Shown here: piece after piece, positions 30,248-48,073 of the stretch | Numbering within the stretch: position 1 is the first letter of the stretch | How the letters are laid out: each line of letters starts with the position of its first letter | NCBI RefSeq assembly: GCF_000807675.2 | Contig: NZ_CP019962.1 | Coordinates: forward strand, 1,798,001-1,862,000 | Origin: Eubacterium limosum | GTDB lineage: Bacteria > Bacillota > Clostridia > Eubacteriales > Eubacteriaceae | Reading direction: 5' to 3' | DNA length: 64,000 bases | The notes under the pieces: generated by a model | What the model was told of the DNA's origin: nothing | The model's input: only the letters and a program-made list of their open reading frames with translations | Databases searched by the model: none | Made by a program: the position numbers and the translations under genes

Positions 30248-30895
30248 ATGCTAAATTCTGAAATAGAAGCAGCCATTGAAGAGAAGAGAAAAGATAAGCT
30301 GCCCTATGATCATTATAAAAATTTAATAAAGAATAAGGATCCCTTGGAGATTGCGGAGAAATCTACCTGTCCTTATGACCCGGAAAAACAGCTGTTTACA
30401 GTGACGTTGATGGGTGAGGAATACAAGGTAAAATATCCTGAAGGCGATGTGCTTTTAAAGGACGGGACTGCCTTTGACGATTATAAGCCGATGACTATGA
30501 TCCTGCGTTATCTGCTTAACGCCCAGGGCGTGCCGCCGATGGGCACAACCATTGCATACCGGGATATCTCGGGTGGAAATCATTATTTTAAGAGCTTTGA
30601 GGGCCGATGCCTGAAGCGGTTTGCCTTCACCTTTAACTATGATGTTGAGGGGCTGAAGCGGGCCATGGAGAAGCTGAATGCAGAACCTAAAAAGCATGGT
30701 GATCTGTCCTACCGGTTTGAGTTTATCAACAATATGTATCTAACCGTGATCCTCTGGCTGGGAGACGATGAATTTCCACCAGAATCACAGATTCTTTTCG
30801 ACAGTAATATTACCTCAGGCTTTGACGCGGAGGATCTCGCCGTAATGGGTGACATCTTTATCCCTGCGTTGAAGCGGCTGGCAAAAGCAGACTGA
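30248..30895 (+). CDS. DUF3786 protein of the acs cluster
   Basis: A 215-residue soluble protein of unknown function conserved in acetogen carbonyl-branch clusters between acsV and acsD. Features visible are YKNLIKNKDPLEIAEKSTCPYD, GVPPMGTTIAYRDISGGNHYFKSFEGRC and a C-terminal VILWLGDDEFPPESQILFDSN. I recognise it as DUF3786, a family also found next to corrinoid proteins. No cofactor motif is obvious apart from two isolated cysteines (about residues 38 and 121). Location suggests a role in corrinoid protein activation or assembly. GAGG lies before the ATG and it is coupled to acsV. Confidence 0.8.
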   Translation: MLNSEIEAAIEEKRKDKLPYDHYKNLIKNKDPLEIAEKSTCPYDPEKQLFTVTLMGEEYKVKYPEGDVLLKDGTAFDDYKPMTMILRYLLNAQGVPPMGTTIAYRDISGGNHYFKSFEGRCLKRFAFTFNYDVEGLKRAMEKLNAEPKKHGDLSYRFEFINNMYLTVILWLGDDEFPPESQILFDSNITSGFDAEDLAVMGDIFIPALKRLAKAD

Positions 30896-36568: not shown

Positions 36569-37351
36569 ATGAAAATAGCATTAACTGGAAAAGGTGGCGT
36601 TGGGAAAACGACAATTACAGCCTGCCTCAGCCGTTATTACGCCGATAAAGGTTTTAACGTATTGGCCGTTGATGCTGACCCCGATGCAAATCTAGGCCTG
36701 GCACTGGGTATGAGCGAAGAAATGATTGACAGCATCACACCTATTTCTGAAATGAAGGACTTGGCCGAAGAGAGAACAAATGCAAAAAAAGGAACCTATG
36801 GCGCCTTTTTCACAATGAATCCGGAAGTTGCGGATATTCCTGAAAAATTTTGCCGCGAGTTTAACGGTGTTAAGCTCTTAACAATGGGAACAGTCGATAC
36901 TGGCGGAGGCGGATGCGTTTGTCCGGAACATGTACTGTTAAAAATGCTGACGACACATTTGGTTTTATACCAAAAGGACATTGTCATCATGGATATGGAG
37001 GCAGGGATTGAGCATCTTGGACGTGGAACCGCATCAGCGGTCGACGCGTTTATCGTTGTCGTCGAACCTGGTATCCGAAGCATCCAGACCTTTAAACGAA
37101 TCAGCAAACTGGCTGGTGACATCGGTGTTAAACACGTTTATGCCATTGGCAACAAAATCCGAAAACCGGAAGACATTGACTTCTTAAATGAACGGATCGG
37201 AGCAGAAAACATTTTTGGTTTCTTAGATTACAGCGATCAGATTTCCGGTTCAGACAGAAATAACAAGTCACCATACGATATTCCTGAAACCAGAGAAAAA
37301 ATTGCAGCTCTCGGGGAAAAAATTGAAGCGACTGTAAAAAGTAACAAATAG
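36569..37351 (+). CDS. cooC2: CooC family ATPase, nickel insertion/maturation factor (second copy)
   Basis: A 260-residue MinD-like ATPase between acsA and acsB. The P-loop is TGKGGVGKTTITACLSRYY, followed by AVDADPDANLGLALG; the CxC motif is in GGGGCVCPEHVLLK, and MDMEAGIEHLGRGTA plus VVEPGIRSIQTFKRI are family blocks. Position between the genes for the two nickel enzymes fits the role of AcsF/CooC in building the C- or A-cluster. It is closer to classical CooC than the first copy: the loop DPDANLG and the GxGGCxC context agree with characterised members. Confidence 0.95.
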   Translation: MKIALTGKGGVGKTTITACLSRYYADKGFNVLAVDADPDANLGLALGMSEEMIDSITPISEMKDLAEERTNAKKGTYGAFFTMNPEVADIPEKFCREFNGVKLLTMGTVDTGGGGCVCPEHVLLKMLTTHLVLYQKDIVIMDMEAGIEHLGRGTASAVDAFIVVVEPGIRSIQTFKRISKLAGDIGVKHVYAIGNKIRKPEDIDFLNERIGAENIFGFLDYSDQISGSDRNNKSPYDIPETREKIAALGEKIEATVKSNK

Positions 37352-37414: not shown

Positions 37415-39562
37415 ATGGAACGTAAGACTTATAATCTTTTTGATATAATTTACAGTGGTACTGCTAAATATCTTGAACGTGCTGAAAAAGATGTAGCAAA
37501 GGCCATTGAAGAAAAAGGCAGAGATGCAGAAGCTAAACTGCCGGATACCGCTTATGGCTTAGCCACAATTTACGCAATCACAGGCGAAAAATTATTAACA
37601 GTAGGCGATCTGGAACGCGGTATTGAAATGGCAAAAGAACACATCAACCGCACAAACATGCTGGCTGACGCTTTAGAAGCCGGTGTTGCTGCTGCAATGT
37701 TATGTGAAATTATCCAGGCCTGCAAATACTTAGACGGCAACCCACATCCGGAATGGGTAGACGGCGCATTGACCGATGCGGTTGTCCGTTCTTTCGGTGT
37801 TGCTCTGGTTACCCAGGATATCCCAGGTGTTGCTGTTATCATCGGGGAACACAAGGATCCTGAACAGTTAGCAAAAACAATCAAATCTTATCAGAATAAA
37901 GGTCTTCAGACCTATCTGGTTGGTAAATGTATTGACCAGGCAAGAGACCAGAAAATCAAAATGGGTGTTGACCTTCGTGTTATCCCATGCGGTTACGAAA
38001 TCGAAGATGTTATCAACGTTGTATCTGTTGCTGTACGTGCTTCTATCATGTTCGGTAACACACCAGCCGGCGAATGGGAAAAACACAGAATCTACACAAG
38101 AGACCGTGTATTCGCATTTGTTAATGTATTTGGCGACTGGGATGACAAGATCATCGCTGCTGGCGCCTGCGCAATTGATATGGGCTTCCCGGCAATCACA
38201 GAAACCTACATTAATGAAGTTCCTACCCTGTTATTAAACCAGCCAGACCTGACAAAAACAGACGCTACCTCTCTTGAAGCCCGTGGCATCAAGATCAAGG
38301 TTACCGAAATTGACTGTCCGGTATCTGTATCCTCCGCTTTCGAAGGCGAACGTGTCCGTAAAGACAACATGAAAGCTGAATTCGGTGGAAACAGAACAAA
38401 AGCCTGGGAATTAGTTCATACTGTAGAATTAGGCGATATCGAAGATCATAAGATCACTGTTGTCGGCCCGGATATTGACGATCCACAGTTTGACGGCGTT
38501 GACGTTGTCCGTATCCCATTTGGTCTGGAAATTAAAGTTGCTGGTAAAGCAATGCAGTCCGACTTTGAATCTGTACTTGAAAGAAGATTACACTACTTCT
38601 TAAACTACATTGAAGGTTCAATGCACGTTGGACAGAGAAATATCTGCTGGGTTCGTTTAACCAAAGAAGCATTTGATGCTGGCTTCAGACTGCGCCACTT
38701 CGGTGAAGTAGTTTACGCTAAGATGTTAGACGAATTTGGTAAAGTAGTTGATAAAGTTGAAGTTACCATCTACACCAAAGAAGAAGATGTTGTACGTCTT
38801 GAAGAAGAACTGGTTAGACCAATCTACAACGTACGTGATGACAGACTGAACTCACTGACAGATGAAAGTGTCGATGTATTCTACACCTGTACACTGTGCC
38901 AGTCCTTTGCTCCTTCTCACGTTTGTGTTGTAACACCTGAACGTTTAGGTCTCTGCGGTGCTGTTTCCTGGTTAGACTCCAAAGCAACCAAAGAGCTTGA
39001 CCCAACCGGTCCTGCACAGCCAATCGAAAAGAATGGTGTTATCGACGAACGCTTAGGCGCATGGGAAGAAGTCAATGACGTTGTTGCCAAGTGCTCTCAG
39101 GGTGCAGTTGAAAAAGTTACCTTATACTCTATCCTTGAAGATCCAATGACCTCCTGTGGTTGCTTCGAATGTATCTGTGGTATTATGCCAGAAGCCAACG
39201 GTGTTGTTATTGTTAACCGTGAATTCGGCGGCATGACACCTACTGGTATGACCTTCGGTGAATTAGCTTCCATGACAGGCGGTGGGGTTCAGACTCCTGG
39301 CTTCATGGGCCACGGACGTCACTTCATCAGCTCCAAGAAATTTATGGCTGCTGAAGGTGGTATCGAAAGAATCGTATGGATGCCTAAGGAATTGAAAGAC
39401 GACGTTGCAGAAAGATTAAACAAATCTGTACAGGAATTATACGGAATTGAAAACTTCACAGACATGGTTTGTGATGAAACAATTGCTGTTGACTCCGAAG
39501 CAGTATTAGAATTCTTAACAGAAAAAGGCCATCCAGCACTGGAAATGGATCCAATTATGTAA
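37415..39562 (+). CDS. acsB: CO-methylating acetyl-CoA synthase
   Basis: Joins CO made by CODH, the methyl group from CoFeSP and coenzyme A to acetyl-CoA at the nickel-containing A-cluster. The 715 residues include an N-terminal CODH-contact domain, a middle domain and the A-cluster domain, where the 4Fe-4S ligands are in CTLCQSFAPSHVCVV and GLCGAVSW and the distal nickel site is the Cys-Gly-Cys of SCGCFECICG. The length is close to the roughly 730 of Moorella. GGAGGAAG precedes the ATG. A strong terminator closes the operon. Confidence 0.98.
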   Translation: MERKTYNLFDIIYSGTAKYLERAEKDVAKAIEEKGRDAEAKLPDTAYGLATIYAITGEKLLTVGDLERGIEMAKEHINRTNMLADALEAGVAAAMLCEIIQACKYLDGNPHPEWVDGALTDAVVRSFGVALVTQDIPGVAVIIGEHKDPEQLAKTIKSYQNKGLQTYLVGKCIDQARDQKIKMGVDLRVIPCGYEIEDVINVVSVAVRASIMFGNTPAGEWEKHRIYTRDRVFAFVNVFGDWDDKIIAAGACAIDMGFPAITETYINEVPTLLLNQPDLTKTDATSLEARGIKIKVTEIDCPVSVSSAFEGERVRKDNMKAEFGGNRTKAWELVHTVELGDIEDHKITVVGPDIDDPQFDGVDVVRIPFGLEIKVAGKAMQSDFESVLERRLHYFLNYIEGSMHVGQRNICWVRLTKEAFDAGFRLRHFGEVVYAKMLDEFGKVVDKVEVTIYTKEEDVVRLEEELVRPIYNVRDDRLNSLTDESVDVFYTCTLCQSFAPSHVCVVTPERLGLCGAVSWLDSKATKELDPTGPAQPIEKNGVIDERLGAWEEVNDVVAKCSQGAVEKVTLYSILEDPMTSCGCFECICGIMPEANGVVIVNREFGGMTPTGMTFGELASMTGGGVQTPGFMGHGRHFISSKKFMAAEGGIERIVWMPKELKDDVAERLNKSVQELYGIENFTDMVCDETIAVDSEAVLEFLTEKGHPALEMDPIM

Positions 39563-39575
39563 TAAATACTTGCTT

Positions 39576-39608
39576 GAAAGCAGGACGTTGCCGTCCTGCT
39601 TTCTTTTT
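39576..39608 (+). terminator. acsB operon terminator
   Basis: Perfect 12-base stem GAAAGCAGGACG / CGTCCTGCTTTC with TTGC loop, followed by TTTTT. Confidence 0.95.
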
Positions 39609-39634: not shown

Positions 39635-39663
39635 AAGACAAATTTAAGGAAAAAGGTTATAAT
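39635..39663 (+). promoter_or_regulatory. Promoter of the histidine-rich protein gene
   Basis: AAGACA (39635-39640), 17-base spacer and perfect TATAAT (39658-39663), about 30 bases before the start codon. Confidence 0.6.
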
Positions 39664-39691: not shown

Positions 39692-40084
39692 ATGAGCGAA
39701 CATAGCCACGAACATACACATACACACAGCCATCCGCACGATGGAAGCCACGACCACGAACATGGACACAACCATGACGCAATGCACGATCATGAGCATA
39801 CACATACTCACACTCATCCTCATGACCATGAACATGGACACGACCATGACCACGATCATGCGCATTCCCACGAGGGAGAAGGCAAGGATATCGAAATTTT
39901 AGGCCTTTTGCTGGATCATTGGGCAGACCATAACCAGGAACACGCTAAAGAATATAAAAACTGGGTGGATAAAATGAACGCAGTTGGCAAGACGGAAGTG
40001 TCAAAGGCCATTGAAGAGGCAATTGCCCTGATCGGCCAGGCCGACGAGCATTTAATGGAAGCCAAAAAAGCTTTGATTAAATAG
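39692..40084 (+). CDS. Histidine-rich metal-binding protein with C-terminal HWxxHN domain
   Basis: A 130-residue protein in two parts. Residues 4-60 contain 27 histidines, mostly as HxH with Asp, Glu, Thr or Gly between, typical of nickel (or zinc/cobalt) storage sequences such as those in HypB and SlyD tails. Residues 65-130 form a helical domain with H76, W77, H80, N81, E83, H84, Y88 and W91. The same domain alone makes up the protein at 40889. No signal peptide, so cytosolic. GGAGG lies 8 bases before ATG. Its place after the CODH/ACS operon and before a CooT-like gene points to nickel supply for AcsA and AcsB. The metal is inferred, not shown. Confidence 0.85.
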   Translation: MSEHSHEHTHTHSHPHDGSHDHEHGHNHDAMHDHEHTHTHTHPHDHEHGHDHDHDHAHSHEGEGKDIEILGLLLDHWADHNQEHAKEYKNWVDKMNAVGKTEVSKAIEEAIALIGQADEHLMEAKKALIK

Positions 40085-40117
40085 AAAAGTTTCTGCTCTT
40101 TATTGCCATAAAATGGG

Positions 40118-40146
40118 TTGATAAATCGGGCTGAACATTATATACT
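40118..40146 (+). promoter_or_regulatory. Promoter of the cooT-like operon
   Basis: TTGATA (40118-40123), 17-base spacer, TATACT (40141-40146). The leader to the cooT-like start is about 95 bases. Confidence 0.65.
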
Positions 40147-40171
40147 AAGATTGTAAAAGATGATTAACTTC

Positions 40172-40205
40172 GGTATCCGGGGCTCTTACTATCCATCCGG
40201 ATACC
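40172..40205 (+). other. Stem-loop in the cooT-like leader
   Basis: Perfect arms GGTATCCGG (40172-40180) and CCGGATACC (40197-40205) with a 16-base loop, 27 bases before the Shine-Dalgarno. No T tract follows. Confidence 0.5.
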
Positions 40206-40247
40206 AGAACGAAAATCTAAGTTTCAAATTGAAAGGAGATGTTTGTT

Positions 40248-40448
40248 ATGTGCGAATCTTCAGCATATTTAGTGAATAAAAAAGGTGAAGAAGAAAAAAT
40301 TATGGATTATGTCATCGACATTGTGCCTAACAATGACGGTAGCCTGACACTTTCAGACCTTTTAGGAGGCACTAAAATTGTCAACGGACGTTTAAAAGAA
40401 GTAAAATTATTAAACCACAAGATTCTGATCGAGGATGCAGCGGTATAA
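40248..40448 (+). CDS. CooT-like small nickel-binding protein
   Basis: A 66-residue protein beginning MCESSAYLVNKKGEEEKIMD. It matches the CooT family of Rhodospirillum rubrum: length about 65, an SH3-like all-beta fold, a cysteine as residue 2 (the nickel ligand at the CooT dimer interface) and alternating strands ending LLNHKILIEDAAV. An in-frame ATG 9 bases earlier overlaps the AAAGGAG site, so the MC start is the right one and places the cysteine correctly. CooT proteins occur in CODH gene groups and bind one Ni per dimer. The DUF3842 gene starts one base after its stop. Confidence 0.8.
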   Translation: MCESSAYLVNKKGEEEKIMDYVIDIVPNNDGSLTLSDLLGGTKIVNGRLKEVKLLNHKILIEDAAV

Positions 40449-40449
40449 G

Positions 40450-40863
40450 ATGAATATTGTTGTGTTGGACGGAATGGGCGGCGGCATCGGGTCCCGGATT
40501 GTTGGCATCCTGAAAGAAGAAATTCCACCTTATATTGAAGTGTACGGTTTGGGAACAAATGCCCTGGCAACAGCGGCAATGCTCAAAAAAGGTGCCAACA
40601 AAGGGGCGACCGGTGAAAATGCCATTGTGGTAAATGCGGGAAAAGCAGATGTTATTATAGGCTCTATTGCCATGACAATGCCCAACGAAATGATGGGTGA
40701 GGTGACAATGCGAATGGTGGAGGCAATAAGCGCCAGTGAAGCCATTAAAATTTATATTCCGATTTTGCCGGAAAATAACTATATCGTTTCTCTCGAGGAA
40801 AAACCATTGTTATTGCAGATCCGTGAAGCCGTTGCATTGATTAAAAAAGAGCTGAATCTTTAA
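40450..40863 (+). CDS. DUF3842 family protein
   Basis: A 137-residue protein starting MNIVVLDGMGGGIGSRIVG, a glycine-rich loop like a Rossmann or phosphate-binding fold. Further blocks are VYGLGTNALATAAMLKKGAN, ENAIVVNAGKADVIIGSIAM and KIYIPILPENNYIVSL. I recognise DUF3842, a Clostridia family without known function. It is coupled to the cooT-like gene (stop and start one base apart) and precedes the HWxxHN gene, so I place it in the same nickel-related operon. Nucleotide binding is possible from the loop, but no kinase or NTPase motif is complete. Confidence 0.75.
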   Translation: MNIVVLDGMGGGIGSRIVGILKEEIPPYIEVYGLGTNALATAAMLKKGANKGATGENAIVVNAGKADVIIGSIAMTMPNEMMGEVTMRMVEAISASEAIKIYIPILPENNYIVSLEEKPLLLQIREAVALIKKELNL

Positions 40864-40888
40864 TACAGATACTTAGAAGGTGACTGAA

Positions 40889-41107
40889 ATGGAAAAATTA
40901 TCCGAAAAGGACGCTGAAGTTTTTCAGGTATTACTGGTACATTGGATTAATCACAACGGTGAGCATGTGGAGGGCTATCGCGAATGGTCCGAAAAAATGG
41001 CGGGTGTCAGACCTGAGGTGGCTGGTGAGATAGACAAGGCGATTGACGATATGCAGCAGGCTGCCAGAAAGCTGATGGAAGCCAAAATCAAATTTCAGGA
41101 AAGCTGA
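40889..41107 (+). CDS. Small HWxxHN-domain protein, stand-alone paralogue of the histidine-rich protein's C-terminus
   Basis: A 72-residue helical protein with H18, W19, H22, N23, E25, H26, Y30 and W33, that is H-W-x2-H-N-x-E-H-x3-Y-x2-W. The same spacing occurs in the protein at 39692, and the downstream helix is alike (LMEAKIKF versus LMEAKKAL). The start follows AGAAGG by 8 bases; a GTG nine bases upstream overlaps that site. It lacks the histidine tail. The three invariant histidines on one helix face could bind a metal. Last gene of the cooT-like operon. Function unknown. Confidence 0.75.
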   Translation: MEKLSEKDAEVFQVLLVHWINHNGEHVEGYREWSEKMAGVRPEVAGEIDKAIDDMQQAARKLMEAKIKFQES

Positions 41108-41188
41108 GAGCAGACAATAAAATAAATTGAAAAATATTTGCTTGAAGGCAAGGTTTATTAACCATGTCTTTTTTTATTTGTTTGCCGG

Positions 41189-41227
41189 ATAAGACCGCTT
41201 TAATTTAAGCGGTCTTATTTTTTTCTT
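41189..41227 (+). terminator. Terminator of the nickel-related operon
   Basis: AAGACCGCTT and AAGCGGTCTT pair perfectly, followed by ATTTTTTT. Confidence 0.9.
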
Positions 41228-47888: not shown

Positions 47889-47921
47889 ATTCGATGTTGT
47901 AAAAAAGTTATAAAACGTTCA

Positions 47922-48031
47922 TCCATAGACAGCAGGGACTGTAGTTTAAATATCCTGCCGAGGCTGAAGAGACACGAGCATTATATACATGATGATATAG
48001 GCTCTCTTCACCTGCGTGGAGAGAGCTTTTT
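47922..48031 (+). ncRNA. Ribosomal protein L10 leader with attenuator hairpin
   Basis: The leader contains the L10-L12 binding kink-turn region (GCAGGGACTG...ATCCTGCCGAGGCTGAAGAG) and ends in GCTCTCT (48001-48007) / AGAGAGC (48020-48026) followed by TTTTT. This fits the autoregulatory attenuation known for rplJL leaders in low-GC Gram-positive bacteria. Confidence 0.8.
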
Positions 48032-48073
48032 ATATGACTAAAATTCACATCGTAAGGAGGTGCAGAAAAGAAT

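Follow-up and report, generated by a model that had tools for sequence, protein, structure and literature searches.

A gene set downstream of acsB

The four small genes that follow acsB in the Eubacterium limosum window (64,000 nucleotides of contig NZ_CP019962.1, positions 1,798,001 to 1,862,000) probably serve to store nickel and deliver it to the CODH/ACS encoded just upstream, the core of acetogenic carbon fixation. This reading draws on sequences, fold predictions, gene order and co-occurrence, from which we infer metal binding, dimers, the order of handover and the role of DUF3842. The open reading frames lie where a sequence-only reading had put them, four small genes after acsB, and the nickel-supply role that it proposed is supported by a likeness to CooJ of Rhodospirillum rubrum and by the co-occurrence of the shared core domain with ACS. 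The genes 5' of the module are acsC, acsE, acsA, a CooC-type ATPase gene and acsB. Features in window coordinates are:

36569..37351, + strand, CooC-type P-loop ATPase between acsA and acsB, context (CbiA-type NTPase, Pfam)
37415..39562, + strand, acsB, likely client, context (NF040764, 1039.9 bits)
39576..39603, + strand, terminator-like hairpin after acsB (consensus match)
39635..39663, + strand, promoter-like site before the tailed gene (consensus match)
39692..40084, + strand, putative tailed CooJ-type protein, 130 aa, whole gene (ORF)
39692..39886, + strand, N-terminal His-rich tail of the tailed protein (residues 1-65, 27 His)
39878..40081, + strand, predicted CooJ-type helical core of the tailed protein (sequence and profile comparison)
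40118..40146, + strand, promoter-like site before cooT (consensus match)
40248..40448, + strand, CooT (PF10133, E 6.9e-22; PDB 6fan, E 6.5e-8; Cys2 present)
40450..40863, + strand, DUF3842, predicted Rossmann-type (PF12953, E 6.8e-47; model, fold comparison)
40889..41107, + strand, tail-less copy of the predicted CooJ-type core, 72 aa (sequence, genome search, model, Foldseek)
41187..41220, + strand, terminator-like hairpin after the tail-less core (consensus match)

The name CooC2 for the ATPase at 36569..37351 comes from the available part of PMC7079680 and from gene position. Two transcription units, as first read from the sequence, are plausible: the tailed gene (39692-40084), and cooT with the DUF3842 gene and the tail-less core. 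The signals are consensus matches only, with 8 promoter-like sites against 5.0 expected and 3 terminator-like hairpins against 1.5 expected. An Rfam search for a metal-sensing RNA 5' of cooT gave four matches at E <= 1, all in the downstream terminator region. Elsewhere in the window, positions 47905-48041 carry a ribosomal protein L10 leader RNA, and 30248-30895 encode a DUF3786 protein (PF12654, E 3.4e-58), flanked by the RACo/AcsV gene and acsD; in G040, G048 and G210 a relative is found close to DUF3842-CooT as well.

Two copies of one core domain

The tailed protein holds 31 His, of which 27 fall in the first 65 residues. H-W-x2-H-N-x-E-H-x3-Y-x2-W is present in both window cores, with the motif letters HWADHNQEH and HWINHNGEH, and none of 5000 shuffles attained their pairwise score of 130 (best shuffle 63), bearing out the earlier observation of one domain both fused to a tail and free. 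No third core copy was found in the 4.42-Mb genome at E <= 1, the 72-aa protein matched no Pfam or NCBIfam family above cut-off, and viral contigs yielded no relative.

Relatives show three builds. The tail is N-terminal in the window, Acetobacterium, Clostridioides, Romboutsia, G364 and the majority of the deltaproteobacterial loci examined, and C-terminal in L073, L082, L086, G487, G596 and G605; it is lacking in the second Eubacteriaceae copy, L081, two Lokiarchaeota loci and a Bathyarchaeota locus. Among Eubacteriaceae, the core was found in 28 of 40 genomes, 24 of which have at least two copies. In a tree of the core (31 rows, 69 columns, 10 of 28 inner branches open) the tailed and tail-less Eubacteriaceae copies are separated by a branch with 98/99 support, which makes them an old pair in this family. 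Three core matches apiece occur in G558 and G625, from the class of the deltaproteobacterial MAG G436. The tail-less copy is very unlikely to be a functionless duplicate in decay: its counterpart at locus L056 has Tyr in place of the first motif His, but the window copy keeps every motif residue, the tail-less copies have a branch of their own, and two or more copies are kept in those 24 genomes.

Relation to CooJ

By sequence and model, the core is a predicted CooJ-type domain, not a novel one, and the tailed protein a CooJ variant. CooJ of R. rubrum has a His-rich tail at its C-terminus, and Alfano and co-workers reportedly described in 2019 a CooJ motif H(W/F)X2HX3H. The CooJ structure 6hk5 bears HFLDHVEGH, in register with both window core motifs. 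Our broad profile A4, run against the PDB, had R. rubrum CooJ (6HK5) as the first of 15 matches (E 0.13, not significant alone), and hhalign of the core against 6hk5 gave a score of 29.0 (prob 82), where 200 shuffles reached at most 19.9. The model of the core, a helical hairpin (pLDDT 96.3), had 6hk5_E as its first Foldseek match (prob 0.98; E 0.53, not significant alone; TM 0.77/0.85; rmsd 1.6). VIA-align placed 6hk5 at rank 44 only, among many hairpins, the fold being common. Single-sequence PDB searches with either core returned chance matches only, CooJ not among them, and plasmids searched with an R. rubrum CooJ fragment gave no match. The structure 8e55 beat CooJ with profiles A1 (E 0.0013) and A2 (E 2e-4). 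Judging from its name and the match, we take it to be a designed helical repeat protein; it was rejected because it aligns with the second half of the core alone, without covering the motif, and is missing from the 15 A4 matches.

These comparisons also bear on whether the likeness might be convergence, with a helical hairpin and a similar His face arising apart from kinship. The hhalign score falls to 12.3 when the motif is masked, so that the motif carries most of the likeness, and hairpins are frequent folds; but motif, length and the CooT/CODH setting are all shared with CooJ, and C-terminally tailed cores, as in R. rubrum, exist in Deltaproteobacteria. We consider convergence improbable and retain the CooJ-type assignment for the core.

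The window system resembles CooJ (6HK5) in having H(W/F)x2Hx3H in register, a hairpin core of similar length, a His-rich tail, and CooT and CODH genes as neighbours, a gene company found in the window and in 22 of 35 named loci. It is unlike R. rubrum CooJ in its tie to ACS operons, its adjoining tail-less paralogue, its extra neighbour DUF3842 and the placement of the tail, which is N-terminal in 39692-40084, absent from 40889-41107 and C-terminal in R. rubrum. Because the tail is not C-terminal, we file the protein as a CooJ-type variant and not as a strict CooJ. The core had first been taken for a shared docking domain, and this part of the sequence-only reading is revised, since the domain is not new and has the CooJ motif and the 6HK5 likeness. 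Going by the CooJ precedent, the conserved His would make up a nickel site, and a second nickel-binding protein is therefore a likelier role for the free copy than that of an adaptor for docking.

CooT and DUF3842

CooT scored 78 bits against PF10133 (cut-off 27) and begins MCES, with Cys2 present. It is like the known CooT family (PF10133; 6FAN) in its full-length match above cut-off, its Cys2 and its match to 6fan, and unlike it in being paired with DUF3842. The DUF3842 protein scored 159.6 bits against PF12953 (cut-off 28.5) and looks Rossmann-type in models from a 10-row alignment (five models, pLDDT 57.9-87.9); the first Foldseek match was 1sbz (E 4.3e-4, rmsd 8.2), matches being loose. 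Compared with NAD(P)-binding Rossmann domains, it is a small single domain.

The suggestion that DUF3842 is a partner in the system holds in that it is a real neighbour of CooT, adjoining it in 33 of 136 DUF3842 loci; it fails as regards specificity, since 101 of the 136 have none of the partners sought and DUF3842 is therefore not CODH-specific. A CbiM/CbiQ (Ni/Co) importer lies near 12 of the 33 CooT-DUF3842 pairs, as against 2 of 103 DUF3842 loci without CooT, with 7 of the 14 importer-linked loci coming from one genus. All seven core- and ACS-bearing genomes without DUF3842 that were tested have CooT. Among genomes with adjacent CooT and DUF3842, 9 of 23 tested gave no CODH match, and the pair was rejected as a marker of CODH genomes, being weak (14/23 versus 20/55 for DUF3842 alone). 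The literature searched yielded no mention of DUF3842, and our confidence in any precise role for it is low.

Proposed nickel route and published genetics

If the analogy with R. rubrum CooJ holds, the flexible His tail of the tailed protein would store several nickel ions, and the HWx2Hx3H face of its helical core would hold one more tightly. The tail-less copy would offer nothing but the core site, and could act as a carrier in its own right or as part of mixed dimers. In R. rubrum, CooT binds one nickel per dimer through Cys2, and the window CooT may do the same. DUF3842 could be a small Rossmann protein that binds a nucleotide and partners CooT, and insertion of the metal into AcsA and AcsB would finally fall to CooC-type ATPases. 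The simplest chain would thus run from His-tail store to core site to CooT, ending in CooC-type insertion into AcsA/AcsB. A more elaborate scheme, which we regard as doubtful, is an ACS-dedicated nickel loader: the N-tailed CooJ variant, which in one case shares a frame with AcsB, would dock on AcsB, pair with its tail-less twin and take nickel from CooT-DUF3842, with DUF3842 as a nucleotide-sensing Rossmann protein through which the cell's redox or energy state would govern CooT loading or the import of Ni/Co.

Should the nickel-set reading be right, a His-rich protein whose deletion in an industrial acetogen has a published phenotype would gain a name and a testable metal site, DUF3842 a first functional lead, and the CooJ-type core a wider reach (140 of the 192 genomes sampled from one class, and 68 likely CooJ genes in the available part of a 2026 survey). 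That survey in eLife (PMC13056359) ties its CooJ clade E to one-carbon genes in the same part, and may therefore already include some proteins of the present build. The N-tailed build is not described in the available parts of PMC7079680, PMC6344411, PMC11247825, PMC11301274 and PMC8704837.

The mutants are those of Nwaokorie et al. 2023 (PMC10230548), who deleted 'hp' (His-rich) and the CooT gene 'nbp' in C. autoethanogenum. These genes, like those of the window, encode a His-rich protein and CooT beside the C1-fixing cluster, and their homologues are stated there to accompany pathway genes in E. limosum and A. woodii. The name CooJ has 0 occurrences in that paper; judging by G262 and G364, where the core follows CooT, hp is the likely counterpart of the CooJ-type protein. 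Both mutants grew 21-37% slower in rich medium, and neither differed in growth in minimal medium on syngas. AcsB and CooS1 were reduced in both, 1.5-fold in one mutant and 1.8-fold in the other, and AcsE and AcsD were raised in both; the hp mutant also had 13 ribosomal proteins lowered. Added nickel brought no change in the nbp mutant in minimal medium, and the authors suggested a role in using complex nutrients (PMC10230548). A candidate reading is that the mutants may be starved of nickel in rich medium because yeast extract chelates it. According to the part available of a 2018 review (PMC6006190), R. rubrum cooC, cooT and cooJ mutants require added nickel.

Co-occurrence with ACS and CODH

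Profile searches tie the core to CODH/ACS genomes, as the sequence-only reading had supposed: 18 of 20 core genomes in Clostridia, and 127 of 140 in the class of G436, have ACS. ACS was found in 21 of the 391 Clostridia genomes sampled and in 153 of the 192 genomes of the other class, where 13 were core-only and 26 ACS-only. Fisher p values for core versus ACS, 5e-26 and 5e-9 respectively, ignore kinship and genome incompleteness. The two core-only Clostridia are G275 and G146, where a 35-residue match containing a stop is probably spurious; the three ACS-only ones are G088 (72% complete), G210 and G311. Core, CooT, DUF3842 and acs genes occur together in 22 of the 35 named loci. Twelve named loci (L059, L073 and L081-L090), with no acsB in the fetched stretch, were tested separately, and their genomes have ACS in 9 cases and a match in 11 to PF03063, a family that also includes hybrid-cluster proteins. 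In the Lokiarchaeota locus L085, the core adjoins an AcsA-like gene of 782 aa (E 3e-12). A rule that C-terminal tails mean no ACS held in 3 of 3 loci at first and in 4 of 6 with more loci, and 11 N-tailed or tail-less core genomes also have no ACS; it was dropped as at most a trend.

Locus L040 of G275 encodes a CooJ-like His protein with a CooT-like neighbour in a genome with neither ACS nor a PF03063 match, which shows that such a pair can have another use. In G170, a second His-rich protein (L044:76-582, 168 aa, 38 His) lies upstream of a CooJ-like/CooT-like pair. Both loci would suit a module that buffers excess nickel, cobalt or zinc, with CODH/ACS merely explaining high nickel import, as would the unspecific binding of many metals by His tails. 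We think this quite unlikely, given the tight link to ACS genes and genomes and the reduced AcsB and CooS1 of the published mutants.

ACS as a possible main client

If the genes do form a nickel-supply set, its main client could be the A-cluster of ACS instead of the C-cluster of CODH, which we rate as possible, though not the favoured reading. The core co-occurs with ACS, and in four Acetobacterium loci (L072, L074, L076 and L078), as well as in L075, a separate tailed gene stands directly before a second acsB. A single 973-aa frame at L056 (Eubacteriaceae MAG AS10tlH2TH_313, G005) runs through the tail, the core and a second AcsB; this AcsB is 64% identical to that of the window, with its cysteine motifs kept. 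Against ACS as main client, CooS1 is lowered in the mutants too, and R. rubrum CooJ serves CODH in the absence of ACS. The fused frame, moreover, is from a MAG, one of 28 core-bearing family genomes, and its linker retains AAGGAGG and ATG where AcsB usually starts, which would allow free AcsB to be made. A lost stop or a MAG error could also account for the joined frame. AcsF is said to have been presented by Gregg and co-workers in 2016 as the nickel inserter of ACS. A second apparent fusion, a 945-aa frame in G511, proved to be an out-of-frame open stretch before acsB. In a C. difficile ACS cluster (L058:6393-9062), three genes lie between AcsV and CooT; one encodes a 290-aa protein without Pfam match, and the products of the other two are of radical SAM and lipoate-ligase type.
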